In this document: one piece after another, positions 3,253 through 12,791 of the stretch
Layout of the letters: each line of letters opens with the position of its first letter
How positions within the stretch are numbered: position 1 is the first letter of the stretch
From: Candidatus Zhuqueibacterota bacterium
GTDB lineage: Bacteria > BS750m-G25
Direction: 5' to 3'
Assembly: GCA_016783505.1 (NCBI GenBank)
Contig: JADHWK010000064.1
Location: 1 to 12,796, forward strand
Length of the DNA stretch: 12,796 nucleotides
Position numbers and translations under genes: made by a program
Notes under the pieces: model-generated
What the model saw: only the letters and a program-made list of their open reading frames with translations
Told to the model about the DNA's origin: nothing
Databases searched by the model: none

Positions 3253-3455
3253 CCGCAGCCTCTAGCCGTCTATATAAGCAGAGATTTTGAAATTTAGGCC
3301 AAGTTTTTGTAGTAAAATAAAAATCTGATGCTTTAAAATCCGAAATACGATCCCGAACCTTCGGGACGAAACAGCCCAAAGCTGAGTTGCTTTGGTCATC
3401 GGTCAGGGGGGCGAAGCTTCGCTAGATCAAAACGAAACTACTGGGTTAGGGATCT
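3253..3455. other. ybaB-recR spacer with palindromic repeats
   Basis: This spacer is unusually long for the ybaB-recR pair, which are commonly adjacent. No gene is visible. It carries the perfect inverted repeat TCCCGAACCTTCGGGA (3351-3366) and the 12-base palindrome GCGAAGCTTCGC (3411-3422). A TTGGTCATCGGTCAGG segment near 3392 resembles text in the SRP-dnaX spacer. It looks like a landing ground for small repeats rather than a regulatory region. Confidence 0.6.
3351..3366. repeat. Palindromic micro-repeat, copy 1
   Basis: TCCCGAACCTTCGGGA, seven-base arms around CC, followed by CGAA. Related copies lie at 6065, 6579 and 12020, with a weaker one at 5881. Confidence 0.7.
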
Positions 3456-5807: not shown

Positions 5808-6102
5808 GTTACGACCTATGTAAAATGATCAAAATTTATAAATCACAAGCTCCAATTCCCAAATTACAAACAAATCCTATCCCGAAGATTGGGGAACCAA
5901 ATGTTCAAAACCAACATCGTTTTGATCATCCATACGGATGATCCGTAGGAGGCTACGCTCCCAGGGGAATTTGGTGCTTCGGTCAGGTTAGTCAGGTCCG
6001 TCAGGCGCCGGACTGATGCCTAACTGACGCCCGACTGATGTAATTTGGAATTTACTAACTTTAGTCCCGAACCTTCGGAAAAACAGGATGATGGTCAAAG
6101 GA
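5808..6102. other. SRP RNA-dnaX spacer with hairpins and repeats
   Basis: No gene is seen in these 295 bases. An imperfect hairpin pairs 5982-6000 with 6009-6028 and is built of GTCAG and CTGAC words. ACGGATGATCCGT (5935-5947) and a TCCCGAACCTTCGG motif (6065-6078) are also present, plus scattered AATTTGGAATTT-type text. No clear terminator with a T-run follows the SRP RNA on its strand, so read-through into dnaX is possible. Confidence 0.55.
6065..6080. repeat. Palindromic micro-repeat, copy 2
   Basis: TCCCGAACCTTCGGAA is identical to the copy at 3351 except for one base in the second arm. Confidence 0.6.
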
Positions 6103-6376
6103 CGGCTGTGCCCTACCTTCGTTCCTGTCTTACCCGACCTCCCCCACGATAGCCAGCTCCCGCCAAGCGTCCCCGGGGCAGCGGCCCAAAACGCCTACCG
6201 CTGCTACCTCCCGGTCCTGACGGGGTTTGGCGCTCCAGTCCGTCCCCGGGACTCGACGATCAACACCGCTTACCGGGAGGAACATCGGGGGACCCGGACC
6301 TCAGAGTAGGCCTTCGACCCTGCTATAGCGGATTGCAGGCTACAGGGCACCGCTAACTCCCCGTCTAGCACAGCCG
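6103..6376 (-). ncRNA. ffs: Signal recognition particle RNA, long form with Alu domain
   Basis: RNA scaffold of the signal recognition particle, which binds Ffh and targets membrane proteins. The ends pair: CGGCTGTGC at the 5' end (6376-6368) with GCACAGCCG at the 3' end (6111-6103). The 5' part holds the Alu-domain text GGTGCCCTGTAGCC and CAATCCGCTATAGCAGGG. The Ffh-binding helix 8 is visible as GTCAGGACCGGGAGGTAGCA (complement of about 6203-6222), with a GGGA tetraloop (6209-6212) and the GCAGC internal loop. A length of about 274 bases marks the large Gram-positive type rather than the short 4.5S form. It begins directly after the CCA of tRNA-Ala and precedes dnaX, a common location. Confidence 0.93.
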
Positions 6377-6452
6377 TGGTGGAGCTGAGGGGATTTGAAC
6401 CCCTGACCTCTAGAGTGCGATTCTAGCGCTCTCCCATCTGAGCTACAGCCCC
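6377..6452 (-). tRNA. tRNA-Ala(CGC)
   Basis: The minus strand folds into a full cloverleaf of 76 bases with encoded CCA. The acceptor arms GGGGCTG and CAGCTCC include the G3-U70 wobble pair, the classic alanine identity element. The D-arm reads GCTCAGATGGGAGAGC. The anticodon stem CTAGA/TCTAG encloses ATCGCAC, giving anticodon CGC for the codon GCG. The T-arm reads AGGGGTTCAAATCCCCT. The SRP RNA begins at the next base, so one transcript and a shared cleavage point are likely. Confidence 0.96.
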
Positions 6453-6479: not shown

Positions 6480-6634
6480 AACCTACCTGGTATAAAACAA
6501 TCTTTTAATAAATTCCTATTCTCGTATAATGTTCCCATCATAAAAGAAGTCCTGAGGGTAGCGAAGGATTTGGGTAAGTCCCGAAAAATCGGGGCGAACC
6601 TTTTATGCTGTGTTAGGCGACAGTTTTGCGAGAC
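6480..6634 (-). repeat. attC-like recombination site 3 (end of cassette 3)
   Basis: In minus-strand direction the arm GTCTCGCAAAACTGTCGCCTAAC (6634-6612) is the inverted copy of the start of cassette 3 (10378-10357). CAGCATAAAA (6610-6601) then pairs with TTTTATACCA (6497-6488) through a ten-base stem with three G-T pairs, and the site closes with GTT at 6482-6480. The five-base gap between stem and GTT matches the other two sites. The loop has been enlarged and contains a palindromic micro-repeat (6579-6597). Confidence 0.65.
6579..6597. repeat. Palindromic micro-repeat, copy 3, inside attC-like site 3
   Basis: TCCCGAAAAATCGGGGCGAA is a variant of TCCCGAACCTTCGGGACGAA at 3351, including the trailing CGAA. 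It sits in the loop of site 3. Confidence 0.55.
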
Positions 6635-6653
6635 GAATAACATCTTTTCAATT

Positions 6654-7670
6654 CTATTTTCTTTGACTCTCACTTTCTACACTTTTTACTTTCTCATTAT
6701 TTTTATGGGGTAGGTAGAATTCTCTTATTTCTTTGTCAAACTCAAGTGTATATTTCTCTTTATTGTAAAATAACGGAAAAGCATAAACTATCTGAGCCCT
6801 TGATGCATTGTTATTTTCCTCAAAAAATAAATATATCCCAACTGTCTGCATTTTTGTTCCGAGTGGTGCGATTGAGACCATAGAATCTTTGTATTTCTCA
6901 TCACGATACCATCTATTGAGCAAATCCTTTGTGCAAGCAGGATCCAGTGCTGAAACTTCTTCTACAACAGTATTAGGATGTTCCAAGATAGAACGGTTTG
7001 CTGAGCGTGATGGTAAATCAGCGCCGTGATAAGTAGGGGGATTGCCAATAACAGCTACTGTCAAATCGGGTTCAACATATTTCCAAATAGCATACGCCCG
7101 CTCACCCTCGTAACCAAGCAAAAGAATCAAGATATTTCTGTGAAGTTCTACACAGTCGAGATTGCCAAAATAAGGTAAATAAGTTATGTCTTTTATTCCC
7201 CAGGTTAAATTTTGTCTGACCATGTAGTATCCAGGAGTGTATAAAAGCCTTATCTTCGCATTCGGATAATTGGAACGCAGAAATCGAAGTAATAATAATA
7301 AATATTGTTTTGTAAAAGTTGAAATATCAACAGTAATTCGTTCTAATGAAGGATTTTTATGAGCAAGATCATGTAAGAATCGGGTAAATTTGGAAGAATC
7401 ATATTTATTGAAATACACAGGTTCTATTTCATGTGAAGGACTTTCTAAATAGGGTTTGAGTATTTCTTTTAATCTTAGTTGATGCTTATTTTTTAAGTTA
7501 TCTTCACCATAATACCTTACTAAAAGCATGTTGCGTGCCTTATATTCACTCTTTTTCAACCTAGCACTTACATTCAAACATCTTGGCTCAAAACTAACAC
7601 TCGCAATAAACAAATCGTCAGACTTTGAACTTTCGATGGGTCTAACTGTGCTTATCGGTATAACGCTCAT
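6654..7670 (-). CDS. Companion protein of the ATPase/effector system, two Rossmann-like lobes
   Basis: Cytosolic-looking protein of 338 residues that I do not recognise by name. The first half starts with a beta strand DLFIASVSFEPR and has ITVDISTFTKQYLLLLLRF, a layout that recalls Rossmannoid nucleotide sensors such as CARF domains, which carry a D-x-T/S-x-x-TK motif. The second half repeats the theme: ILLLGYEGERA, then TVAVIGNPP, then MVSIAPLGTKMQTVGIYLFF. A role in sensing or target binding is inference. It starts with ATG at 7670, has GGGAG about seven bases upstream, and overlaps the stop of the preceding frame by four bases (ATGA), so the two are translationally coupled. It is the last gene of cassette 3. 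Confidence 0.85.
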   Translation of the reverse strand: MSVIPISTVRPIESSKSDDLFIASVSFEPRCLNVSARLKKSEYKARNMLLVRYYGEDNLKNKHQLRLKEILKPYLESPSHEIEPVYFNKYDSSKFTRFLHDLAHKNPSLERITVDISTFTKQYLLLLLRFLRSNYPNAKIRLLYTPGYYMVRQNLTWGIKDITYLPYFGNLDCVELHRNILILLLGYEGERAYAIWKYVEPDLTVAVIGNPPTYHGADLPSRSANRSILEHPNTVVEEVSALDPACTKDLLNRWYRDEKYKDSMVSIAPLGTKMQTVGIYLFFEENNNASRAQIVYAFPLFYNKEKYTLEFDKEIREFYLPHKNNEKVKSVESESQRK

Positions 7671-8230
7671 TTTCTACTCCCTGATCTAAATTTAACCATA
7701 AAGTCTTCTAACGTATCCTCAATATTTTGTTCGTAAGTGTTTCTACGCCAAGCACAAGGGGAGGCGCTGTTCATTAATACAGGATTATCCCATAAATCAC
7801 CGTCATATGCATATATAACTGAAGACACATCTACAGCTTCAGATAATCCTAATTCTACCACATAATCTACCACTGCCTCTGTGCAATCAATAATCTTGAT
7901 AATGCAACTTTGTAGAGCAAAACACACTTGGCATGTCAAATCGTCCATTGGATAGTCCGACGAGGATATTTCAATTATATCATATTTATCTGATAGTAAA
8001 TTAATTAAAAAATCACATTGTTTCTTGTTTCTTGGTTGAAAAGCTATATATGCTTTCTCTATCCTTTGAGATATTTCGTTTTCATAATCGCAAGAAGATT
8101 TTTCTTTATCGAAAGGACATGACCAATGTTTTTTAAAAAAACTATAACCATGTTGGTGAATCGCATCCCTATACCATTCGTTAAAGGACATATTCTCAAA
8201 TTCAGGAGACGAAGGCTCCCACCTTTTCAC
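7667..8230 (-). CDS. Effector part: deoxyribosyltransferase/TIR-like lobe (frame separated from ATPase)
   Basis: The open frame from GTG 8230 encodes 187 residues, but the coding sequence clearly extends upstream without a stop to about 8390. That extension reads STGVLFEIGLSLGYKSPFF and then LYND, the second half of a nucleoside 2-deoxyribosyltransferase/TIR-like fold, with the presumed catalytic Glu (codon 8338-8336) in FEIG. A second lobe of the same kind lies within the listed frame: AYIAFQPR, then CIIKIIDCTEAVVDYVVELGLSEA, again with E-L-G. Such folds in defence systems often cleave NAD or related nucleotides; that is inference. There is no credible start codon for the extension. The natural product is probably a fusion with the ATPase (see 8369-8378). 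Confidence 0.75.
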   Translation of the reverse strand: MKRWEPSSPEFENMSFNEWYRDAIHQHGYSFFKKHWSCPFDKEKSSCDYENEISQRIEKAYIAFQPRNKKQCDFLINLLSDKYDIIEISSSDYPMDDLTCQVCFALQSCIIKIIDCTEAVVDYVVELGLSEAVDVSSVIYAYDGDLWDNPVLMNSASPCAWRRNTYEQNIEDTLEDFMVKFRSGSRK

Positions 8231-8312
8231 ATCCCAATCTTTGAGGAGCTTAGGTAAACTTTTCTTTTCAAATTCTTCATAGCGGCAATCATTATAGAGA
8301 AAAAATGGACTT

Positions 8313-10304
8313 TTATAACCTAATGAAAGACCTATTTCGAAAAGAACGCCTGTAGAGATGCGTTTCTCTTTTTTTTTTCTGTTTACCTCTGCCTATTTCA
8401 TACTCAATAGGAGTTATATCATGTGTAGTGTAGATAGCTTTCTGGATAATCTTTGGTATATCAATAACAAAACGATGAAGGTCTCGTTTCCATAAATCTC
8501 GTGCTGTTATACATATGTCTTGTTCAACCAATCCAAGCAACCGGGGTCGATCTTTCATATCTTCTTTATGTATATCATTAACTGTACCTTTTAACAAATT
8601 ATTTCTTTCAATAACTTTTTGATCCTTCTTTATTGAAATCGAAATAAAAACAGGATGCTCTGGAAAGATTTTTTTCTGTCCATACTGTGAATCTGCATCT
8701 GGTTGATCGTTTATAGGAGAAAGCATATATTTAATAATTTTATCATTCATCAAAGGAAACTCTCCTTTATTTATCCAGCTAATGCCAAATCGTGGAGCAA
8801 ACAAAGGATTCAGCATACCATGTTCTGGAATATAATCCTTATTAGTATTTATGCTTATTAATTCCTCAGGACTGCATAAAAGAAACCGATTCAAAAAGCC
8901 TTTTCTTAATATTTTTTTAGCTGCCTCACTAATATTAAGAGGTATAGAAAATCTTGAACCTTCAAACGAATATGCTTCTATTCCTTTTTTTTCACAATCT
9001 TTGCCAAAGGAGAGAATAAATGATCTCACCTCACGGAATTCCTCCTCTGTCTCCACATTGACATCTTTATTAAAAGTTAGTGTTGCCAGAGACACAAAAG
9101 CATCAGCTTGTGATTTAGCCGAAATAAAACTAACCTCTTTCGCCTGCTTTTTACTCCGATTGATTTCATTGTCAATCGCTTTTTCACATAGGTTCAAAAA
9201 GGTCAGGATATTTCCTCCAGAAAGTTTAACTAACCTATCGAATCCATAATACAATTTTTGTCTCATATTTCGACTTGTGCCTTTTTCAAAAGTATGAAGT
9301 CGTCTAAGATTTTCACCAGGACTATTACCCTTGTCTATAATATGCTCTATTTTTTGTGGAAATTTTTCAGAAAACACTTCAGCCATATCTATTTCATCTT
9401 TTCCCTGAGGTGATAGTATCTTAATTGTAATTTTTCGAAGAAGTCTTTCATATTGAATATCATAAGGGTCATGGTCTAAAGATAAAATTCCTAAGTCTCT
9501 TGTAAGGTCAATTTTTCTACCCGAAACATCTGAACCAAAAGACTCTGGGAGATATCTTGCGGCGAATTTAACACATAGAGTCTCTTTTAAACTGTGATCT
9601 AAAAAAATATTTAAAACCTTACCTAATCCTTTCCAGTAGTCATATTTATCTACTAAGAGGCATAATCTCTGCTTTCCAATTTTGGTTAATAACTCATCAT
9701 TCATCCGTTCTATCGTAGAAATAAACATGTCCGAGTTAAGGACTCTCATATTTAATTGCTCAGAAAAATCTCTGATTAATCTATTATTTATGATGTTATT
9801 TCTAATTATACTTATTACTTTCTTAAGCCTTTCAATTAGACTATTTACATTAATATTTTCTATATTTAACATATATTCCTCATTGATAATATGAGGGAGA
9901 ATTTCTAACATTTTATAGTCATCATTTAAGAGATTATCCTTTAATTGTATAAGAAGTTCTAAAGCCGTTTTTACACTGAAAAAATGTTCAAAAGTGGCAA
10001 AGTCACTGTAGTCTTGGTATAATCGCACAAGATGTTTCAATTCGGGATTTTTAAAGCCTATATAAACTCCATAGAAAGACAAGTTTTCTAATCTATTTCT
10101 CTTTAATTGAACAGATAAAGAAAGTGCTTTTAAAACAGCAGACTTTCCGCTCCCTGTAGAGCCAATCAAAATACAGTGCCCTGGCTGTAAATATTTTTCA
10201 TAGTCTGGAGGCTCTGCAAATAATGAGTAAATTTCATTAAAATCAATATGTTCAGCGTTTTTCTCTCTCCTAAAAGGATTATCAATCAACTTAAATTTGA
10301 CCAT
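8313..10304 (-). CDS. ORC1/CDC6-like AAA ATPase with start of a TIR/deoxyribosyltransferase-like domain
   Basis: This 663-residue protein has the plan of the ORC-CDC6-type ATPases found in bacterial defence loci. It starts with NPFRREKNAEHIDFNEIYSL, then LFAEPPDYEKYLQPGHCILI, then Walker A GSTGSGKS (48-55). The Walker B region is LCLLVDKYDYW (214-224), where Lys220 stands in the place of the usual catalytic Glu. A likely sensor follows in VKFAARYL. From about residue 550 a new domain begins: PVFISISIKKDQ and LWKRDLHRFVIDIP fit the first half of a deoxyribosyltransferase/TIR-like fold. The frame then meets a run of ten A residues and ends 18 codons later in RSFRNRSFIRL, which looks out of frame. 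The start is ATG 10304, 73 bases into the cassette. Confidence 0.85.
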   Translation of the reverse strand: MVKFKLIDNPFRREKNAEHIDFNEIYSLFAEPPDYEKYLQPGHCILIGSTGSGKSAVLKALSLSVQLKRNRLENLSFYGVYIGFKNPELKHLVRLYQDYSDFATFEHFFSVKTALELLIQLKDNLLNDDYKMLEILPHIINEEYMLNIENINVNSLIERLKKVISIIRNNIINNRLIRDFSEQLNMRVLNSDMFISTIERMNDELLTKIGKQRLCLLVDKYDYWKGLGKVLNIFLDHSLKETLCVKFAARYLPESFGSDVSGRKIDLTRDLGILSLDHDPYDIQYERLLRKITIKILSPQGKDEIDMAEVFSEKFPQKIEHIIDKGNSPGENLRRLHTFEKGTSRNMRQKLYYGFDRLVKLSGGNILTFLNLCEKAIDNEINRSKKQAKEVSFISAKSQADAFVSLATLTFNKDVNVETEEEFREVRSFILSFGKDCEKKGIEAYSFEGSRFSIPLNISEAAKKILRKGFLNRFLLCSPEELISINTNKDYIPEHGMLNPLFAPRFGISWINKGEFPLMNDKIIKYMLSPINDQPDADSQYGQKKIFPEHPVFISISIKKDQKVIERNNLLKGTVNDIHKEDMKDRPRLLGLVEQDICITARDLWKRDLHRFVIDIPKIIQKAIYTTHDITPIEYEIGRGKQKKKRETHLYRRSFRNRSFIRL
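8369..8378 (-). other. A10 homopolymer that breaks the ATPase-effector reading frame
   Basis: Ten A residues (coding strand) encode KKK in the ATPase frame. Leaving out one A joins residue 645 directly to EKRISTGVLFEIG and continues to the stop at 7667, giving one protein of about 878 residues with an ATPase and two TIR/deoxyribosyltransferase-like lobes. The downstream motif completes the fold begun upstream. A slippage site, a phase-variable tract, a fixed mutation or an assembly error would all look the same here. Confidence 0.7.
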
Positions 10305-10377
10305 TTCCTATCACCTATTGTTTTTGACTCTTTAATCAATTTTTGCTGGTGCAAAAGTCTCGCAAAATGTCGCCTAA

Positions 10378-10449
10378 CGGTACCAGCATATACGACGTTT
10401 TGTGATAGCAAAATGTCCCGAAGCGTATATGCTGTGTTATCTGCCGTTA
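10378..10449 (-). repeat. attC-like recombination site 2 (end of cassette 2)
   Basis: In minus-strand direction: TAACGGCAGATAAC (10449-10436), CAGCATATACG (10434-10424), an internal loop, ACATTTTG (10416-10409), a six-base apex, CAAAACGT (10402-10395), CGTATATGCTG (10394-10384), five bases, and GTTAGGC (10378-10372). The 11-base stem is perfect and the next eight bases pair with one G-T. GTTAGGC fits the integron core consensus GTTRRRY, with unpaired bases between the R and L type boxes. The first 14 bases are the inverted copy of the start of cassette 2 (one mismatch). Confidence 0.75.
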
Positions 10450-10458
10450 TAATAAATA

Positions 10459-11118
10459 TCAGTTGAATAAAGACCAAATAACACTTGCTAACAAAGAGGA
10501 TAGAATACCAGCTATAAAACCTATTACTATTTTCTTATTTTTATACCACCAAGTAGAAATTATAATTGCTTCCTTAATTTCACCTGCAATATTCTTCGCA
10601 TTCTCTTTGAACGCTTTATCATATGCTTCATTAATGGGCAAACTTTCGTCTTTTTCTTCAGGATCAGGTTTCTTCATTATTTTGGTTGCTTTGGTTTTAA
10701 GAATGTGAATTGCATCATCAAGTGTTCCTTTACGTGTGAAAAATAAATATGGAATAGATTTAAAATTTTGACCAATGACATATGCTAGCGTAATTCCGCC
10801 ATTAGATGATTGATTAAGCTTGGCAAGAACTGTTCGAAATTTTGTTTGCGCTTTTAGATATAATTTTCTTTCAACGTGTAATTTTTGTAATTGCTCCTCA
10901 GTTGGCCGAGAATCCATCGGATAGTATAAATCTAATACAAAAATGTCAGGCCTTTTTCTTCCCTGCTTTTTTAAATCATCTAATGCCTCAGGATAAGTTG
11001 TTCCAGCGCCAATGATAAAACCATTCTCAAGTTTATCCTTGTCAAGGTTATTCTTGAAGCGCTTAATTTCATCTTGGTCGTCATCAATAAAGCAAATTGC
11101 ATATTCTTTTTGATACAT
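10459..11118 (-). CDS. Response-regulator receiver domain with C-terminal membrane anchor
   Basis: This 219-residue protein starts with a CheY-like receiver fold: FIDDDQDE with acidic D12-D14, the phosphorylation site Asp63 in IFVLDLYYP, Thr128 in PYLFFTRKG, and the Lys-Pro pair K150-P151 in IMKKPDP. About 40 polar residues follow, then one hydrophobic helix (about 196-217, IVIGFIAGILSSLLASVIW) at the very end. There is no DNA-binding or enzyme output domain, so it probably acts at the inner face of the membrane through a partner. An insertion of about 30 residues after D63 is longer than usual. No histidine kinase lies in the window. The start is ATG 11118 with GGTGAT just upstream. It is the only gene of cassette 2. 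Confidence 0.85.
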   Translation of the reverse strand: MYQKEYAICFIDDDQDEIKRFKNNLDKDKLENGFIIGAGTTYPEALDDLKKQGRKRPDIFVLDLYYPMDSRPTEEQLQKLHVERKLYLKAQTKFRTVLAKLNQSSNGGITLAYVIGQNFKSIPYLFFTRKGTLDDAIHILKTKATKIMKKPDPEEKDESLPINEAYDKAFKENAKNIAGEIKEAIIISTWWYKNKKIVIGFIAGILSSLLASVIWSLFN

Positions 11119-11154
11119 TTAATCACCCATTCGTAGAGTTCGTATTAGGTAATG

Positions 11155-11302
11155 GCAGATAACGGTTGGCCGGTATACGAAGTGCGTACCTTAACGAAAT
11201 CTAAGTTAATAAATATGGTTGGGTTTTCAGTGTCTGTCAAGTATGTTTGAGAAGTAGTGGAGAAGCAAGCATTTTGTATACCGGCTTGTTGTGTGCCGTT
11301 AA
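11155..11302 (-). repeat. attC-like recombination site 1 (end of cassette 1)
   Basis: In minus-strand direction: TTAACGGCACACAAC (11302-11288), a stem of 16 pairs between 11284-11269 and 11185-11170 built on GTATACCGG/CCGGTATAC with G-T pairs beyond it, an 83-base loop, six bases, and GTT at 11163-11161. The first 15 bases are the inverted copy of the start of cassette 1 (14 of 15). The stop of the upstream gene lies inside the first arm. Confidence 0.7.
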
Positions 11303-11900: not shown

Positions 11901-12320
11901 TTAAGATTTTCCTCCTCTCTTACGAATGCTCAAACTATCCAGCGGGCTCCTAATTCTTCCAATGCTCTGTTTGCTAACATGGGTATATATTTCGGTTGTC
12001 TTACTACTCTTATGCCCCATCCCGAAATTTCGGGACTGAATATACCGGAGGTCAGTCCCGCTTTCTAATAGGTGTGTCGCAAAACTATGTCTAAGACTGT
12101 GTACCGAAACCTGTTTTTGAGTTCCTGCTATCCGGCATGCTTTTGTGAAAATCTTCTCAACCGTTCGCGATGTTATATGTTTGTCCTTGTTCTGTCCTGG
12201 AAACAACCACTTCTTTGGTCTGTATTCCTTCCAGTATCCCCTTAGAATACCCAATGATCTCTCGGAAAGAATGGTATATCTATCCTTCCTCCCTTTAGTA
12301 TCCCTAATGTGAATAAACAT
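11901..12320 (-). CDS. Tyrosine recombinase, N-terminal half missing
   Basis: The 139-residue frame covers the C-terminal catalytic domain of a phage-integrase-type recombinase. Visible: [13 protein letters not shown] with catalytic Lys9, HSLRHSF with His74 and Arg77, GHKSS with His103, and IYTHVS with the nucleophile Tyr112. The tail reads RIRSPLDSL, a sequence also common at the end of integron integrases. The segment between the Lys strand and HSLRH is short, so the extra IntI-specific helix is absent. Homology extends a few codons upstream (EHIDSKR, to 12341), then stops at a junction. The core-binding domain and the first catalytic Arg are lost, so it should be inactive. A palindrome adds three residues at SRNFGM (96-101). 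It points toward the array. Confidence 0.88.
12020..12035. repeat. Palindromic micro-repeat, copy 4, inside the recombinase gene
   Basis: TCCCGAAATTTCGGGA is a perfect 16-base palindrome. It encodes most of SRNFGM between RYIQ and GHKSS, where this family normally has three residues, so at least nine bases appear to be inserted in frame. Confidence 0.65.
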
Positions 12321-12562
12321 CCTTTTGCTGTCAATATGTTCTTTTCGGTTCTGGATTGTACATTACGCTCTCTTCCCTTCCATACCGAAAACGGCACCAC
12401 CTTTTCAAAGTACGAATCCCCGCCGTGGACATAGTCGCCCTCCTCTTCAACGAAGCGGTGATCAGCGGTAACAACAACCTTAAATTCCGACCCGACTCGC
12501 CGAACCCAGCATTCATGAGTATTAGAGAAATCCTTTCTACTCTGCCGTCCGCCGTCATCCAT
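12242..12562 (-). CDS. Hypothetical protein, probably truncated and run into recombinase DNA
   Basis: An ATG at 12562 overlaps the stop of the zinc-finger gene by eight bases, and the frame reads [12 protein letters not shown], then [20 protein letters not shown], then [20 protein letters not shown]. This looks like a real compact protein of about 75 residues, of no family I can name. From about position 12341 onward the frame reads the recombinase gene out of register ([12 protein letters not shown] to HWVF), so the last 33 or so residues are an artefact of the junction. The overlap suggests an operon with the upstream YgiT-type gene, possibly a toxin-antitoxin pair. Confidence is limited by the missing true C-terminus. 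Confidence 0.5.
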
Positions 12563-12791
12563 GAGAATTAATTTCGTACAACTCAGCAGTAAACTTGCCT
12601 GATGGCTTGACTCTTCCATTTAAGATATTCTCTACAATTTTTGCTGATGACAAAGGCATTGATTCTTGCCCACACTCTGGACATACATACATAACCAAGT
12701 CCGAAATAACAATAGGCTCGCCGTTACGAAGGAATATCTTTTCTTCTTTTCTTTCCTCCATTGGGAATGGACAGCCATTTGGACACTGCAT
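12555..12791 (-). CDS. YgiT-type zinc-finger protein (MqsA-like N-terminal domain)
   Basis: This small 78-residue protein has two cysteine pairs, CPNGC (C3, C7) and CPEC (C37, C40), around MEERKEEKIFLRNGEPIVI and VMYVCPECGQES. This is the YgiT-type zinc finger, which forms the toxin-binding N-terminal domain of MqsA-like antitoxins. The helix-turn-helix domain of full MqsA is absent; many short relatives occur beside a small toxin gene. The tail SSAKIVENILNGRVKPSGKF is typical of the short form. ATG at 12791 is five bases from the window edge, so upstream signals cannot be judged. The next gene starts inside its last codons. Confidence 0.82.
   Translation of the reverse strand: MQCPNGCPFPMEERKEEKIFLRNGEPIVISDLVMYVCPECGQESMPLSSAKIVENILNGRVKPSGKFTAELYEINSHG

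Follow-up and report, generated by a model that had tools for sequence, protein, structure and literature searches.

TCCCGA-N4-TCGGGA, a candidate mobile mini-hairpin dispersed in genes, tRNA copies and spacers of unrelated bacterial phyla

Background

The small dispersed repeats (SDRs) of Nostoc punctiforme, reportedly described by Elhai et al. in 2008, are very short dispersed hairpins of 21-27 nt that show compensatory changes, nested insertions and insertion into other repeats. They are confined to a group of cyanobacteria, and we know of no transposase that moves them. The Rickettsia palindromic elements (RPEs) are longer and confined to Rickettsiales. Two of them, RPE-4 and RPE-6, have been placed among the CGTC REPs, which are characterized by a CGTC/TGTC tag, an 8-9 bp stem starting with AT and a CCA tail (PMC3733652). 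REP and REPIN sequences in general are short palindromic repeats, mostly intergenic, with some copies in genes or other palindromes and with families common to distant species; the GTAG REPs carry a GTAG tetranucleotide at the stem foot and are linked to RAYTs (PMC3733652, PMC3116915). Mitochondrial repetitive hairpin-forming elements, double hairpin elements and yeast GC clusters are mobile hairpins without a gene of their own, in which stems vary less than loops and which hit spacers and tolerant parts of genes; yeast GC42 is 42 nt long, and a putative AG target duplication accompanies the yeast GC clusters (PMC2800124, PMC4478555).

The hairpin studied here, TCCCGA-N4-TCGGGA, resembles each of these systems in part. 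As with the RPEs, palindromic insertions are held in frame inside genes. It shares with the Nostoc SDRs the form of a short dispersed hairpin, compensatory changes (27 versus 8 double changes without compensation) and nested insertion, whereas it is 16 nt long, replaces hairpins such as tRNA arms and occurs in several phyla, namely Bacteroidota, Neomarinimicrobiota, Nitrospirae and Acidobacteria in addition to the orphan lineage of the source genome. Like REP and REPIN sequences, it is a short palindrome, mostly intergenic, with some copies in genes and other palindromes and a presence in distant species; in contrast to them, it has a shorter stem, lacks both a tail and a consistently linked RAYT gene, and removes bases from its target. 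The GTAG tag at the stem foot was not found in the flanks of 64 independent copies, and the stem of 6-7 bp, with neither tag nor tail, does not correspond to the CGTC family. The mitochondrial elements are similar in having no gene of their own, a loop more variable than the stem and insertions in spacers and tolerant gene parts, but they are organellar and typically longer, and no AG-type target duplication was seen here. The Nostoc SDRs and the mitochondrial hairpin elements work most like it, but they are longer and taxonomically confined, and we file the hairpin as a new variant of dispersed hairpin elements rather than as a member of the REP, SDR or mitochondrial families. In the literature covered, which mostly excludes subscription papers, no paper printing any of six 14-base forms of the hairpin was found.

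Results

A hairpin copy in a recombinase remnant

The window, i.e., the whole 12,796-nt stretch of DNA that was analysed, encodes the C-terminal part of a XerC/XerD-type tyrosine recombinase on the minus strand at positions 11901-12320 (Phage_integrase PF00589, E 3.9e-25, profile positions 56-171). Homology starts only at residue 231 of 370, the first 230 residues being absent; the N-terminal domain and the region of the first catalytic arginine are therefore missing, and the gene is a 5'-truncated remnant, so that its preserved reading frame is no evidence of function. Within the remnant, the perfect palindrome TCCCGAAATTTCGGGA occupies positions 12020-12035 (no strand), inside the interval 12015-12040 that had been singled out by the sequence-only reading, and is read in frame on the minus strand as TCC CGA AAT TTC GGG A(TG). 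The closest homologue (67% identity) has TAT ATT CAG GAG ATC CTG GGG CAT where the window has TAT ATT CAG TCC CGA AAT TTC GGG ATG GGG CAT, and the Q-EIL-G or Q-ELL-G of relatives corresponds to Q-SRNFGM-G. Thus, CAG GAGATCC TGGGGCAT in the nearest homologue stands against CAG TCCCGAAATTTCGGGA TGGGGCAT in the window: 16 nt take the place of 7, a net gain of 9. The sequence-only reading had reported extra residues between RYIQ and GHKSS, where the family has three; there are indeed six codons here versus three in relatives, homologous recombinase structures likewise lack the three extra residues, and none of the homologues found encodes the same six residues. Its picture of an in-frame insert in a recombinase domain holds for the frame and has to be corrected in two respects, since the gene is truncated and 7 nt were replaced.

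Four further copies, none with an assigned strand, were found in the window. The motif scan identified an exact intergenic copy, TCCCGAACCTTCGGGA, at 3351-3366. At 6065-6080, directly 3' of the SRP RNA gene, there is a one-mismatch copy, TCCCGAACCTTCGGAA, with an exact homologous counterpart at L028:10232, and the one-mismatch copy TCCCGAAGATTGGGGA at 5880-5895 corresponds to a perfect copy, TCCCGAATATTCGGGA, at the homologous site of L028. The fourth, TCCCGAAAAATCGGGG at 6579-6594, has two mismatches, forms a 7-bp hairpin and lies in the loop region of an attC-like site. Of the two spacer copies announced beforehand, the one at 3351 is therefore exact and the one at 6065 is recognizable with one mismatch, and the copy assigned to the loop of the third attC-like site (6579) is located there in a degenerate state. 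Five matches with at most three mismatches compare with 0.86 expected, and none of 200 shuffled windows reached five.

Abundance and anatomy

The source genome comprises 2.51 Mb in 89 contigs and is 59.9% complete. Across these 2.51 Mb, TCCCGA-N4-TCGGGA (TCCCGANNNNTCGGGA) occurs 226 times, and exact TCCCGAANNTTCGGGA, in which the loop is closed by A..T, 126 times; the reversed-pattern control gave 0 in both cases. Composition and anatomy were assessed in sampled stretches of 611 kb and 1.23 Mb. The larger sample contained 141 copies versus 0.17 expected under a first-order Markov model, an excess over base composition, and palindromes with permuted arms of the same letters had a mean count of 0 (611 kb). 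Neither of the two outcomes that the sequence-only reading named as refuting, a count explained by base composition or homologues with the same six residues, was therefore obtained. Chance and an assembly artefact were ruled out, because of this Markov expectation and because the hairpin is present in isolate genomes (Flavobacterium soli, F. pectinovorum).

The spacing of the arms is strictly 4 nt (91 copies with this spacing versus no more than 5 with any other), and the four loop bases are free; TCCCGAAGCTTCGGGA is one written form. CCCCGA, which with 11 copies ranks second among the 6-bp hairpins of the sample, is a one-pair variant of the TCCCGA stem. In 1.23 Mb, 141 perfect copies face 37 copies with one change, all one-sided; a further 27 carry changes compensated on both sides, the outer pair having gone from T-A to C-G in 22 of these, and 8 carry double changes without compensation. 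Read outward from the hairpin, 117 of 128 flanks begin with a pyrimidine, i.e., R-hairpin-Y, and the flanks of 64 independent copies showed nothing beyond a pyrimidine at +1 and a purine at +3. The 16-mer alone is predicted to fold with -5 kcal/mol as DNA and -8.2 kcal/mol as RNA. Most copies are intergenic (81 of 91 in 611 kb), distributed over 76 unidirectional, 3 divergent and 2 convergent spaces, close to the prediction from the lengths of the spaces.

Distribution among genomes and within other genes

Of 386 further genomes from the same domain, 12 carry at least 7 copies (highest 77) and the rest 0-4, such that the hairpin is absent or sporadic in about 97% of them and the source genome, with 226, stands at the top. 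A scan of named genomes for close pairs revealed carriers in Flavobacterium, Pedobacter, Chitinophagales, Prolixibacteraceae, Lentimicrobium, Neomarinimicrobiota, Nitrospirae and an Acidobacterium. Single genomes contain from 1 to 157 copies, for example 103 in F. pectinovorum, 119 and 136 in two Neomarinimicrobiota and 157 in the Acidobacterium, and the hairpin counts as abundant in Flavobacterium, Neomarinimicrobiota, Nitrospirae and this Acidobacterium. A phage vehicle was considered and rejected, as 2.9 million viral contigs contained no close copy pairs.

Apart from the recombinase remnant, in-frame copies in the source genome lie in a PpiD/SurA-like isomerase (...STIPKLRDGVRD...) and an NTP_transf_5 protein. 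In a Neomarinimicrobiota NuoF that also has the hairpin in frame, 12 residues are absent from the best-matching solved NuoF chains. The DegT aminotransferase of F. pectinovorum carries two in-frame copies in one loop, the first of which is common to this species and Flavobacterium sp. ov086 and the second of which is not, while neither is present in four other Flavobacterium species. The codons of this DegT loop that precede SFYPGKNLG (L163-L168) consist of different noncoding-looking repeats from species to species (CCCAACACCCAACACC, AATCAAGAATCAA, mini-hairpins).

Empty and filled sites

Comparison with empty homologues revealed either clean insertion of 16 nt or replacement of 3-17 nt. Clean insertions were found at two non-palindromic sites, L030_5076 (AATCAG|CAATTAG, versus six empty copies) and L214_9001 (CCCA|CTGATA). 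Replacements were read at L189_10288, L207_18273, L197_3190, L023_17996 and L021_19235. The lost segments include CCAGGTCTTGG and CAAAATCTTGG, the tips of one CCTGCCCG..CAGGCGGG hairpin in two separate contexts, as well as TCTTTAGA, TCCATTTTAATGGA, GCCTCGC, GAATTTC and TAATT and, in a nested case, the loop AAAT of another TCCCGA hairpin; copies nested in the hairpin itself or in other repeats occur at L199_11917, L021_19106 and L030_5076. The empty/filled pairs displayed no target-site duplication, and in most of them target bases were lost; the flanking duplications envisaged by the sequence-only reading are thus not seen, and its notion of a motif added to a site applies to the clean cases, replacement of a few bases being the usual outcome. 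Its broader proposal, that the motif spreads even into genes, is borne out by the genome-wide excess, the empty/filled paralogue pairs, the in-frame genes and the presence/absence pattern in Flavobacterium.

The replacements were examined as a set of 24 with readable boundaries, compiled by hand from alignments after the pattern had been seen. A lost segment was counted as a flush-ended hairpin if at least 3 complementary end pairs were flush with its boundaries, and the null consisted of same-length windows at other offsets in the same sequences. Nine of the 24 lost segments were flush-ended hairpins versus 0.43 expected, and none of 200,000 null draws reached 9 (maximum 5); without the tRNAs, the figure was 4 of 12 (P about 4e-5). 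These nine include REP-like tips, other palindromes and whole tRNA arms (anticodon, T and D). The other 15 were not flush-ended by the 3-pair criterion, including the recombinase site (GAGATCC in the nearest homologue). In 21 of the 24 cases a purine stood at the left junction, and in 20 a pyrimidine stood at the right one. At three sites, the loop equals the target sequence (AGGT in L189, AGCT in L021_19235 and ATCC in L233). We first supposed that a GAANNTTC already in place had acquired the arms TCCC and GGGA on its two sides; this agreed with the recombinase and two further sites and was abandoned after failing at the clean insertions and tRNA arms.

A repeat of ~200 nt at L023 17880-18140, with homologues in L025, L026, L027, L029, L031 and L036, consists of four successive hairpins between inverted ends GGGCCTGT.., and single hairpins are present, absent or exchanged between its copies.

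Exchanged arms in tRNA copies

In a tRNA-Glu copy next to the intact gene, the anticodon arm CCGGCCTCTCACGCCGG is exactly replaced by TCCCGATACTTCGGGA, and the remaining cloverleaf is intact and folds. The T arm CTGGTTCGAATCCAG is exactly replaced in tRNA-Pro copies, as is the D arm in tRNA-Asn copies, where part of the anticodon arm is replaced too; a tRNA-Asp copy has the hairpin in place of the 3' anticodon side and the variable loop. Other phyla show the same phenomenon: several tRNA-Asn copies in two Bacteroidetes MAGs are affected, the D loop CAGTTG of tRNA-Gly is replaced in a Bacteroidia and in a Neomarinimicrobiota genome, and a tRNA-Leu of G054 has the hairpin at the position of the variable arm.

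Discussion

Comparison of empty and filled sequences thus demonstrates both the spread of the hairpin and its replacement of other hairpins. The reading that we favour, at a probability of about one half, is that TCCCGA-N4-TCGGGA is a dispersed mobile mini-hairpin that spreads without a linked transposase or target duplication, inserting at nicks and at the bases of hairpins. It lands wherever tolerated: in intergenic repeats, tRNA copies, protein loops and a decayed recombinase gene. As for how it inserts, we infer that what moves is a short hairpin, paired with itself and flush at its ends, either single-stranded DNA or RNA copied back. A nick or the foot of an extruded hairpin, probably in the lagging strand, would take it up, and its sealing into place would eliminate the old hairpin. 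The arms would be preserved by selection for a stable stem, leaving the loop to drift. Such passive sealing-in would explain the constant arms, the free loop, the lost target hairpins, the lack of duplications and the spread over phyla. The three loops that match their targets count against this reading, because a pre-formed hairpin would not predict such a match, and so do the 15 lost segments that are not flush-ended and the one Y1 gene of the source genome that has copies on its flanks. RNA intermediates of the SDR type are a close alternative. More tentatively, and with considerable doubt, the data may reflect a structure-directed "hairpin exchange" in bacteria, in which a free flush-ended mini-hairpin, sealed in at the foot of an existing one, takes its place in a single piece, even where that piece is an entire arm of a tRNA gene, and of which TCCCGA-N4-TCGGGA would be the most successful example, crossing phyla without a dedicated gene.

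Could a known enzyme be responsible? It is unlikely that a Y1 (HUH, TnpA_REP/RAYT) transposase moves the copies in trans as REP-type elements. REPs are likewise small hairpins that enter genes (PMC3733652), three of the five Y1 matches in the source genome are clear Y1_Tnp genes, and direct repeats GAACCG-A-TCCCGAAACTTCGGGA-TA-CGGTTC lie on either side of one Y1 gene (L042 1190-2030, contig C80). However, the search for an associated transposase, which the sequence-only reading had proposed, gave no consistent one: copies stand on both sides of one of the five matches here, but of none of the roughly 30 Y1_Tnp loci in 12 further genomes with the hairpin, a result on which we discarded a Y1/RAYT mover. 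G073 has 43 copies and no detectable Y1_Tnp, the hairpin flanks contain neither a GTAG/CGTC tag nor a conserved foot, and replacement of hairpins with loss of target bases is at odds with Y1 insertion. Travel with stand-alone GIY-YIG nuclease genes among tRNA copies seems quite unlikely. Such genes have hairpin-bearing tRNA-derived repeats on both sides in the source genome (L220, 1350-1950, C81), G054 (L219) and Sphingobacteriales 46-32 (L233), and one lies beside tRNA-Asn copies in L070, but most copies are distant from them, and G063, G072 and G073, with 36-43 copies, have one or two GIY-YIG matches, those of G063 and one of G073's being of UvrC size. As a mover, the nuclease was set aside, since some loci are associated and the counts do not require it.

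That selection maintains the palindrome as a binding site or architectural element, the dyad of a DNA-binding protein, with insertion incidental, is distinctly improbable: the perfect dyad, the strict 4-nt spacing, the symmetric R...Y flanks and the excess of perfect over one-change copies (141 versus 37) would suit it, whereas copies in tRNA copies, protein loops and decayed genes, the lack of enrichment in divergent spaces and the same sequence in unrelated phyla at very different numbers would not. An intrinsic transcription terminator or mRNA-stabilising hairpin is extremely improbable despite the stability of the RNA form and a few copies followed by T runs (L070, after tRNA-Asn), given that most copies lack a T run, convergent spaces show no excess (611 kb) and copies reside inside open reading frames and tRNA copies; terminators and regulatory sites alike were rejected on the placement of the copies. 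Local mutation, in which template switching at quasi-palindromes turns imperfect palindromes into perfect ones, could account for replaced segments that resemble the hairpin centre (GAATTTC, GAGATCC, GCTTCGC) and for the loops equal to their targets. We regard it as very unlikely, since the arms are always TCCCGA/TCGGGA regardless of the surrounding sequence, where local templating would give arms of local sequence, and since clean insertions occur at non-palindromic sites.

If the reading of a mobile mini-hairpin holds, it would be among the smallest mobile DNA known, with 12 fixed bases, common to unrelated phyla and swapping structural elements as units. Repair or replication could then exchange RNA-like modules, such as tRNA arms, in a single step. 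The long-standing question of how hairpin repeats with no gene of their own multiply (REP singlets, SDRs and mitochondrial hairpin elements) would also become directly testable, and cultured Flavobacterium strains contain many copies.

Additional observations

The Y1 locus of L042 resembles a REPtron whose REP contains the mini-hairpin, and the tRNA-derived repeats flanking GIY-YIG genes (L220, L219, L233 and L070) often have arms exchanged for the hairpin.

In the window, a bacterial large SRP RNA adjoins tRNA-Ala(CGC) at 6106-6452, the degenerate 6065 copy following the 3' end of the SRP RNA. Upstream of the truncated recombinase, at 12242-12791, a reading frame of 125 aa overlaps that of a small zinc-finger-like protein; the two, neither with a Pfam match, may be a decayed toxin-antitoxin pair. 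The region 6541-11300 has attC-like hairpin sites between several minus-strand genes (10368-10447, z -5.4; 11155-11300, z -3.4; 6541-6625, weak), which suggests an integron-like cassette array without a complete integrase of its own. Positions 6654-7670 and 8313-10304 encode two neighbours, a CARF-domain protein (PADLOC CARF6, E 1.5e-35) and an ORC-CDC6-like P-loop ATPase (PF24389, E 1.7e-43), which are separated by a small protein; this is possibly a defence module.
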